Source: Eggerthellales bacterium (lineage in GTDB: Bacteria; Actinomycetota; Coriobacteriia; Coriobacteriales; Eggerthellaceae). From it: a stretch of 35,995 nt of DNA. Made by a program: the position numbers and the translations under genes. The DNA is taken from the NCBI GenBank assembly GCA_029006935.1, contig JAQXGX010000118.1, positions 1 to 35,995 of the forward strand. Reading direction: 5' to 3'. The notes beneath the pieces are model-generated. The model searched no databases, was not told the origin of the DNA, and saw nothing but the letters and a program-made list of their open reading frames with translations. Positions 32,572 through 35,995 of this stretch are shown in pieces. Each line of letters begins with the position of its first letter. Position 1 is the first letter of the stretch.

Positions 32572-33672
32572 ATGCCTTCTGAACCGCAAAAGCTCAGGTT
32601 GCTTCATCTGTGCATGATTTTTGTCAAGGAAACCGATGGCGACCATGGTCTGACCATGCCGCAGATTATCGAGCGGTTGCTGGAGCTGGGCGTGACGGCG
32701 GAGCGCAAGGCTATCTACCGCGATATCGCCGTGCTCCAGGACTTCGGCATGAAGGTGGAAAAGCTCCCCACGTCTCCGGTGCAATACGCCCTGGTGGAGC
32801 GGTGCGTGTCCGTTACGGACTGCTCCCTTATGATCGACGCTCTTCAGGGGTGCCCCTACCTGACCAAGCGCAAGTCCCAGGACCTGGTACGGATCGTGAA
32901 GAAGCTGGTGAGCAAGGAGCAGGCCAAGAGGCTTGACAAGCGGGTGCATCTCCAGCAACGCGTTCACACCCAGTTCAGTTCCGTCTTCAGCAACGTGGAC
33001 GTGATTCAGCGGGCCCTTTCGGAAAGGCGCAAGGTGGAGTTTCGCCTGTACACCTACGGGCTGGACAAGGAGCCCCAGGTTACCTCGGGCACAGCGCCTC
33101 TGGTGGTGACCCCGGTGGAGCTGGTCTACTCCGACAGCCTGTACCACCTGATCGGATACAACCATGTGTGCCAGGATTTCGCCGTCTACCGCGTGGACCG
33201 CATGCAGCAGGTTCGGGTGAGCAAGCAGGTGGCCGATAGGAACGACTCCATCGCCCTGTTCGACATAGAGGAGTACACCTCCCGGGTGTTCGGTATGTTC
33301 AGCGGTGAGCCCGTCTATGCCACCTTGCGGGCAAAGCCCCAGCTTATGGGCGAAATCATCGACCGCTTCGGAACAGACGTGCGCTTGCGGATCCTGCCTG
33401 GAGACACCATCCACGTCTACGAGAGGGTGGTGCAGACCCCCAAGTTCTACGGCTGGATCGCCCAGTTCGGTAATCAGATCGAAATCGAGGGACCTCCGCC
33501 CCTGCGGAAGGGCTATGCCGACTTCATCCGGCAGATCAGCCAGGTCTACCATGAAGACGATGGGACCTACCGCCCGTTCGGGGGGGGGGGAATCTTTCTG
33601 AGTGATAATCCCGCAGAGGAACTAGGGTTACAGCTAGGGCTCCAGCAGGGGAGTGACCTTTCCCTGGGCTAG
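32572..33672 (+). CDS. HTH/WYL-domain transcriptional regulator
   Basis: LRLLHLCMIFVKETDGDHGLTMPQIIERLLELGVTAERKAIYRDIAVLQDFGMKV HTH; VVTPVELVYSDSLYHLIGYNHVCQDFAVYRVDRMQQV WYL-type core; ATG 32572 with TAGGAG SD. Confidence 0.88.
   Translation: MPSEPQKLRLLHLCMIFVKETDGDHGLTMPQIIERLLELGVTAERKAIYRDIAVLQDFGMKVEKLPTSPVQYALVERCVSVTDCSLMIDALQGCPYLTKRKSQDLVRIVKKLVSKEQAKRLDKRVHLQQRVHTQFSSVFSNVDVIQRALSERRKVEFRLYTYGLDKEPQVTSGTAPLVVTPVELVYSDSLYHLIGYNHVCQDFAVYRVDRMQQVRVSKQVADRNDSIALFDIEEYTSRVFGMFSGEPVYATLRAKPQLMGEIIDRFGTDVRLRILPGDTIHVYERVVQTPKFYGWIAQFGNQIEIEGPPPLRKGYADFIRQISQVYHEDDGTYRPFGGGGIFLSDNPAEELGLQLGLQQGSDLSLG
33580..33590 (+). repeat. 11-nt poly-G homopolymer inside the WYL regulator CDS
   Basis: cgcccgttcggggggggggaatc region: G run 33580-33590 in the printed sequence. 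Confidence 0.95.
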
Positions 33673-35799
33673 GACCGTCACCTGCTGGGTGGCTCGGGAA
33701 ATGGCCGTGTACAGGCGGTTGCGGGAAAGGCGATCGGACCCGTAGAAGCTTTCCTGGGCGTCGGTGACTATGACCTGGTCGAACTCCAGCCCCTTGGCCA
33801 GGGCAACGTCCAGGAGCACCACGCCCTTGGAAGGCAGCGGGGTTCCCTTGCCCAACTGCAGCACCTGGCGGTACGGCTCCCCGCCGTCTTCCCGCGCCGT
33901 CGTCCGGGCGCCCAGCAGCTCTGCCAGCTGGCGGGCGCGATCGGCGGTGGGGGCGATGACGGCGCACAGGCCGCCTTCTTCGCCCTTTTCCTGCACCGCT
34001 GAGGCGACCATGCCCTGCAGGGCCTCTTGGTAGGCGCTGGCATCGGGGAAGGAGCGAATCTGAGGCTCGGTTCCAGGACGCTGCACCGATGAGGTGCGTA
34101 TGCGGTCATCCGGGTCCATGAGGCTGGTGAACAAGGCGGTGATCTCCGGGGTGGATCGGTAGCTGGTCAGCAGCTCGCATTCGCATACCTGCCCCCGGCT
34201 TTCCTGGAAGATGCTCCTGATCTGGGGGAAGGTTGCGGTCTGGGGCCTGATAGCCTGGTTTTGGTCGCCCAGGAGCAGGAAATGGGCGTTGTTGAAGTAG
34301 CGGGCAAGAACCATGAGCTGGGGCTCCGCGTAGTCCTGGACTTCGTCCACCATCACGTAGCGGGCAAAGCGGTTTGTGCCTCCTGCCAGGGCCAGCTTCA
34401 GGTACAGCCACTCCGCTGCGTTCAGGGTTTCCTGGCCCAGCATGCGCATGCCGATGCGGTCGATGCGCAGCCAGGCGCCGTCCTCGATGGCCTGGGCTAC
34501 GGGGGCGTAGCGGTCTTGGAGCCAGGTGCGGGTGTAGGAGGCCAGCTCCTCGTCGGACTGGGGAACGATCAGGTGGCCGAAGACCCTGACCATCTCCTCC
34601 TCGGGCAGGGCGGAAACGGTGTCCTGGGTGTCCTCGTCCTTTGTCAGACGGGTGATGCGCTGCTCCAGCTTTTCGAGCAGGTCCTCTGCCGCCAGGCTCG
34701 AGCGGTGCAGGCCCGCGGGAAGTCGCTTGTAGCGGTTGTAGGCGCTGCGAGCCTGGGCGGCGGTGATCACCCGCTCGTCCTCCACGCGGATGTCCTGGAA
34801 GTCCCGCTGGTCCAGCTCCAGGGTGGGCAGCAGTTCGTCAATACGGCGCAGCGTTTCGGCGCTTGCGCGCTTTCCCAGGCCGCGGTCCTGAAGTCCCAGA
34901 CTGCTCATGAGGTCGTCCCAGGTCAGCACCTGGGGGTTTCTTTCGCCCATGTCAGGCAGGACGTGGTCGATGTACTGGCGAAACACCGGGTTGGGGGTGA
35001 TCAGGTACACGTCGTCGGGGCTCAGGTTCTCTCGGTTGCGGTAGAACAGGTAGGCTATGCGCTGCAGCAGAACGCTGGTCTTTCCCGACCCGGCTATTCC
35101 GTTGACCAGCAGTACGGGAACATCCTGGTGGCGGATGACCTGGTTCTGCTCCTTCTGGATGGTGGCGGTGATGTCCTGCAGTTGGTCGCTGCGGCGGCGG
35201 CTCAGGGATGTCAGCAGCAGCGGGTCCTCGATTGCCACCGTGGTGTCGAAGTAGCCGTTCAGGGTGCTGCCGGCAAGGTCGAACTGGCGGCGCAGCTTCA
35301 GGTTGCAGTGGATGGTGCGCCCGTTGGCTTCGTAGGAGGTCTTGCCGTTTGCCTGGTTGTAGTAGACCTCCGCCACGGGGCTGCGCCAGTCCACGATGAA
35401 GTGCTTGCAGTTCTGGTCGGTCATGCCGGTTGCGCCCAGGTAGATTTCCCGGGCCGGGGCGCCGGGCTTGAACTCCAGGCACAGCTTGGCAAAGTAGGGC
35501 TTGCTCATGAGCAGCTTTGCCTTGGCCATGCGCTCCGCGTCCAGATCGTTGGCAAGGTTGTACTCGTCCATGATCTTGTGCATGGCCTCGAACTCCACGT
35601 AGGTTTCCAGGTTCACCCCGGTTCCCAGGTCCATGGAAAGGGCATCCAGCATGTTTTCCCGGTCTTCCAGGGCGGTGGCCATGCGCTGGTCCACCTTCTG
35701 CCGCGTTTCCTGGAAGATTTCCTCCAGCTTGGCGTAGGTGGCGCTCAAGTGCTCCTGCTCCGCTTCGAAGACGGGGTCCTGGGGGGTTTCGATGGCCAT
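33634..35799 (-). CDS. helD: HelD-like superfamily 1 helicase (UvrD-like)
   Basis: FEAEQEHLSATYAKLEEIFQETRQKVDQRM coiled coil; NGIAGSGKTSVLLQRIAYLFYRNRENLSPDDVYLITPNPVF; VDEVQDYAEPQLMVLARYF; LYTAISRATQQVTVL. ATG at 35799 chosen over the longer ORF. Confidence 0.9.
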   Translation of the reverse strand: MAIETPQDPVFEAEQEHLSATYAKLEEIFQETRQKVDQRMATALEDRENMLDALSMDLGTGVNLETYVEFEAMHKIMDEYNLANDLDAERMAKAKLLMSKPYFAKLCLEFKPGAPAREIYLGATGMTDQNCKHFIVDWRSPVAEVYYNQANGKTSYEANGRTIHCNLKLRRQFDLAGSTLNGYFDTTVAIEDPLLLTSLSRRRSDQLQDITATIQKEQNQVIRHQDVPVLLVNGIAGSGKTSVLLQRIAYLFYRNRENLSPDDVYLITPNPVFRQYIDHVLPDMGERNPQVLTWDDLMSSLGLQDRGLGKRASAETLRRIDELLPTLELDQRDFQDIRVEDERVITAAQARSAYNRYKRLPAGLHRSSLAAEDLLEKLEQRITRLTKDEDTQDTVSALPEEEMVRVFGHLIVPQSDEELASYTRTWLQDRYAPVAQAIEDGAWLRIDRIGMRMLGQETLNAAEWLYLKLALAGGTNRFARYVMVDEVQDYAEPQLMVLARYFNNAHFLLLGDQNQAIRPQTATFPQIRSIFQESRGQVCECELLTSYRSTPEITALFTSLMDPDDRIRTSSVQRPGTEPQIRSFPDASAYQEALQGMVASAVQEKGEEGGLCAVIAPTADRARQLAELLGARTTAREDGGEPYRQVLQLGKGTPLPSKGVVLLDVALAKGLEFDQVIVTDAQESFYGSDRLSRNRLYTAISRATQQVTVLAQGKVTPLLEP

Positions 35800-35995
35800 G
35801 CCTGCTCCTTGTTGTGCTCGCGTTGCCCTGCAGCGGGGTGCGGGGCCGTACCCTGGAGCAGCTCTGGGCGAAAGGGGTCGCCGGTGCCGCGAACAGGGCG
35901 GGTCGGTTTTCCAATCTAACAATACTAGCAGGACGGTGGGGTAAAAGGTACGCGTAGTTGCGGTTTTGCGTTCGGCGTTGGGACTGGCGCGTGGC

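Follow-up and report, generated by a model that had tools for sequence, protein, structure and literature searches.

The 11-G homopolymer near the end of a putative WYL/WCX regulator gene is probably a potentially slippery tract of the type found in spacers, which the regulator's reading frame has taken in at its 3' edge and which would generate neutral heterogeneity in the tail that follows. It lies in the window analysed here, which is the whole 35,995-nucleotide stretch of DNA from an Eggerthellales bacterium. The run would belong to a kind of mononucleotide tract found mainly in the intergenic spacers of this bacterial family, in this case situated at the extreme 3' edge of the regulator, where the conserved helices have ended and only a short junction separates the gene from the convergent helD. 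Replication slippage would then give rise to three alternative tails, two of which would end at nearby stops to yield proteins of 342-344 aa, whereas the third would yield a protein of 366 aa and run 39 bp into antisense helD. Such changes in length would be tolerated because every tail spares both the regulator domains and HelD, and the long tail of the 11-G form most likely exists only because the tract happens to have its present length.

The arrangement described in the earlier note was exact on direct reading. The regulator frame begins at an ATG at 32572, with AGGAG before it, contains 11 G at 33580-33590 and ends in a TAG at 33670-33672, 366 aa later, and the difference between this end and that of helD at 33634 on the minus strand constitutes the 39-bp overlap (Table 1). 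When the frame was translated with the tract varied from 8 to 14 G, the length of the run determined both the C-terminus and the overlap with helD, as had been claimed. Tracts of 10 or 13 G end in ...FGGG(G)ESF at 33601, those of 9 or 12 G end in ...FGGG(G)NLSE at 33605, and those of 8, 11 or 14 G open the long tail to 33672; the products are 342 aa with 10 G, 344 aa with 12 G and 366 aa with 11 G. This reproduced the stops previously proposed for 10 G (33599-33601) and 12 G (33603-33605), both of which precede helD. Both frames other than that of the 11-G form are closed within 15 bases of the tract, one of them by a tandem pair of stops, and the tract is outside helD's own frame.

Table 1. 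Coordinates of features around the G tract, numbered from the first letter of the window
Feature	Position	Strand	Basis
Conserved WYL/WCX regulator core, residues 1-332	32572..33567	+	Pfam domains and alignment of relatives
11-G homopolymer	33580..33590	+	Codons 337-340 of the regulator ORF; read directly
Long tail IFLSDNPAEELGLQLGLQQGSDLSLG then stop, probably fortuitous	33591..33672	+	Open with 8, 11 or 14 G only
TGA for 10 or 13 G	33599..33601	+	Translation with varied tract length
Tandem TGA TAA for 9 or 12 G	33603..33608	+	Sequence and translation
Imperfect 12-bp tandem duplication (CTAGGGTTACAG / CTAGGGCTCCAG)	33622..33645	.	Tandem Repeats Finder row 33622-33650 and sequence
Convergent helD (HelD-like RNA polymerase recycling helicase)	33634..35922	-	NCBIfam HelD_BACSU

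The gene product is predicted to be a WYL/WCX regulator by its Pfam matches, a WYL domain at residues 141-216 (1.7e-11, 44.4 bits against a cut-off of 21.8) followed by a WCX domain at residues 247-321 (8e-7, 29.8 bits against a cut-off of 23.9). Pfam detected no HTH in the N-terminal region at E<=0.001, although homologs in the family align from residues 1-6, continuing to about residue 320-334. Most relatives stop directly behind the last WCX helix (for example with ...ILDAYE), approximately 5-15 residues before the first codon of the tract, and a few carry unrelated extensions. In the comparison with 29 other loci, no gene contained a G/C run of at least 6. As the domains and the ends of most relatives precede it, the tract belongs to an accessory tail, and the domains stay complete whatever its length. 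Hence slippage, occurring downstream of both WYL and WCX, would swap a short tail rather than truncate the regulator. A phmmer search found no solved structure close enough to place this tail.

The 26-residue tail of the 11-G form looks like spacer DNA that happens to be open, given its low GC content, low codon score, lack of convincing alignment to the same-genus ortholog, and composition in part from apparently duplicated and antisense helD. GC content is 44% at 33591-33633, compared with 59% in the core. The codon score of 33592-33633 in the 11-G frame was -4.9 bits, whereas core windows of equal size had a mean of 7.6 (sd 3.5) and none scored as low, on a codon table trained on three genes of the window with the regulator core among them, which biases the comparison somewhat towards the core. 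Following the tract, the tail consists of spacer, then an apparent duplication of the 3' end of helD, then antisense helD; the duplication takes in helD's final codons together with its stop, and is the source of LGLQLGLQ in the long tail. Homology between the post-tract frames and the tail of the same-genus ortholog was considered and rejected, as no frame aligned to it convincingly. The exact C-terminus annotated for the WYL gene should not be trusted.

Another explanation for this ending is an error of assembly or sequencing, in which the gene would in truth carry 10 or 12 G and end at 33601 or 33605, before helD. The earlier note was fair in offering homopolymer length error as an alternative. 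The record is a draft in 197 contigs with an estimated contamination of 7%, and while stops lie no more than 15 bases beyond the tract in two of the three frames, the deposited length misses these stops and enters helD. Such an error would be consistent with the non-coding appearance of the 11-G tail, and would do away with the unusual overlap with helD as well. However, the long frame would be open by chance at one length in three in any case, and we regard an error as unlikely, if deserving of some weight.

Across the junction, the longest helD frame starts from the TTG at 35922, although the ATG at 35799 is the more likely start. Its putative product is HelD-like, matching NCBIfam HelD_BACSU (4.5e-104), and is not assigned as an equivalog because its 348.9 bits fall below the equivalog cut-off of 419. 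The same convergent WYL/helD pair is present in the genus' one other genome (G001, locus L002), and among the loci compared the convergence of helD with a WYL gene was limited to this congeneric pair. The syntenic WYL orthologs, that of the window being at 32572-33672, are only 52% identical, compared with 78% for the adjacent HelD proteins, hence the regulator evolves much faster than HelD. The orthologs have the motif PFGG in common, and where the window has the G run, the G001 gene encodes PFGGDG as GGC GGC GAC GGG, without a homopolymer. It continues for approximately 36 residues in a coding-looking extension of 79% GC, with a GC3 of 81%, and its stop overlaps that of helD in CTAG. Given this extension, a tail is not wholly foreign to the ortholog pair, which counts against the reading of a captured spacer tract.

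A second strain of the species was not found by protein and flank-pattern scans of genome contigs, nor by a flank scan of viral contigs, and searching 140 genomes of the family with the DNA returned the source assembly only, with similarity otherwise at the level of helD or the core. Nor was a second copy or strain variant found within the same assembly, which yielded only a partial paralog, 45% identical, at a contig edge.

The position of the run in a short junction between convergent genes raises the alternative that it serves as a nucleic-acid element, either a terminator or a G-quadruplex, to which protein coding would be irrelevant. Eleven G could in principle form a two-layer quadruplex with single-G loops. 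However, the junction of the congeneric genome lacks the tract, and a terminator or RNA structure at this site was rejected, as there was no terminator-like site within 33300-33900 and RNA folding was no better than in shuffles (z = +1.2). A role of this type is therefore scarcely credible.

The proposal of a captured spacer tract draws in part on the distribution of such runs, both in this genome and across the family. No G/C run in the 1.79-Mb assembly is longer than the 11-G tract, and pattern searches of the assembly found 270 runs of exactly 6 (derived from 306 overlapping 6-mers less 36 from longer runs), ten of 7, two of 8, one of 9 and one of 11. The tract is therefore a length outlier relative to the real genome, which nearly lacks long runs. 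Base composition alone would allow it, since the window contains fewer 8-G words than expected, with four observed against a mean of 8.7 in dinucleotide shuffles. The remaining runs of at least 8 G/C in the source genome all appear to be intergenic. The persistence of the longest run formally inside an ORF, in so run-poor a genome, could reflect selection, which counts against this proposal.

In the wider family, 40 of 61 sampled genomes contained G11 or longer, some of them many times, with overlapping G11 matches per genome ranging from 0 to hundreds. Among loci from 13 genomes (the source genome and 12 others), 91 of 99 runs of at least 9 G/C were intergenic, an approximate tally made with a simple home-made codon-based gene caller on an uneven sample of loci chosen for their long tracts, and some of the runs called as CDS reflect weak calls. 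By hand count from the rows of this tally, 10 of the intergenic runs lay no more than 20 bp from the 3' end of a gene, whereas only 3 were as close to a 5' end. The runs of at least 9 G/C in G001 likewise appear to be intergenic. Hence a tract at a 3' border is expected, given a family background in which long runs are mostly intergenic. One cluster, at L056 (G004:C1:225277-225380) in a 3.4-Mb genome assembled as one contig, separates two convergent genes and has G runs of 12, 18, 33, 9 and 14 within approximately 105 bp.

As spacers and gene edges hold most of the long G runs of this family, finding one in frame at the 3' end of a gene says little in favour of phase variation. Much better candidates are runs near the gene start or in a linker, as seen in LuxR-like regulators of relatives. 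At L122 (G033:C8:66226-69245), the gene at 1502-2437 encodes a putative LuxR-family membrane regulator (GerE, 5.7e-11) with a 12-C run two codons past the called ATG, which is the classic position for an ON/OFF switch, as other lengths would give short products of 77-142 aa. At L137 (G062:C148:19571-22585), a gene on the minus strand at 1341-2747 encodes a membrane protein, and its tract at 1502-1514, a 13-C run on the coding strand, is in the linker before a LuxR-like HTH. In the assembly, the HTH-like sequence PREGEILFYLAKGRNAKYIADQLYVAERTVKTHTYHIYQKMGIHSQQELID and the N-terminal part do not share a frame, making this gene either a candidate LuxR-type regulator with translational phase variation or a case of length error.

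The alternative of selected C-terminal phase variation holds that slippage at the window's tract reversibly swaps the tail between ESF, NLSE and the 26 residues, altering the activity, stability or partner binding of the regulator. The anatomy of such genes is present, since the homopolymer (codons 337-340) follows the domains, which end at residue 321, and the other frames provide alternative C-termini of 342, 344 and 366 aa. The tract's exceptional length within its genome also favours this alternative, as does a second C-terminal tract in the family, at L073 (G077:C25:21042-24052), where an 11-C run lies 13 bases before the stop of a possible 206-aa regulator (904-1524, ending ...LRIAPPPPSQN), which is a weak gene call with no Pfam match. 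However, conserved or coding-like alternative ends were not found, the codon score being below that of all core windows; the alternative tails are either 3-4 residues after the glycines, or of non-coding composition; and neither the sole congeneric ortholog nor any other relative compared has the tract. Hence the earlier note's description of the run as a phase-variation substrate holds in so far as the tract is of a slip-prone kind, whereas a functional regulator switch is unsupported, as the tract is past the domains, the tail looks non-coding, and long runs are mostly intergenic. Reversible, selected tail swapping is thus distinctly unlikely, and it is improbable that the tract is a selected contingency element, in which stochastic exchange of tails tunes the activity of the WYL factor across the population. 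As a switch, the tract would matter little unless the tail variants differ in function; were it selected, it would represent C-terminal phase variation of a WYL regulator, in a family for which we found no report of poly-G switching.

Among known systems, the WYL/WCX regulators PafBC (PMC6789036) and BrxR (PMC9122589) resemble that of the window, in which both WYL and WCX were detected by Pfam, whereas the window's regulator has an extra, homopolymer-bearing tail after WCX. The tract itself resembles those of Helicobacter canadensis, in which poly-G tracts near gene 3' ends have ranges of length in sequence reads, such as G8-14 (Snyder et al. 2010, PMC2823697). This read-level variation in 3'-end tracts of at least 10 G, including G11 in flaG and HCAN_0643 (PMC2823697), is a point in favour of phase variation, and the genes share with the window a 3'-end poly-G (there of 10-14, including G11), three short C-termini and a domain upstream of the tract (PMC2823697). 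Unlike the H. canadensis genes, the present tract is known from one assembly, as a single tract in a run-poor genome, with a long tail that is non-coding in composition. C-terminal phase variation has also been proposed in Neisseria gonorrhoeae (PMC5320596), similarly favouring a switch, with strain comparisons showing tract differences for several of the genes (PMC5320596). The window's gene could work like a C-terminal phase-variable gene, judging from its anatomy, although it is not classed as one. As in the gonococcal genes, a repeat at the 3' end alters the C-terminal residues, and one frame can enter the neighbouring gene (PMC5320596); however, the gonococcal fusion is with a co-directional gene, whereas here the neighbour is convergent, and is read only in antisense.
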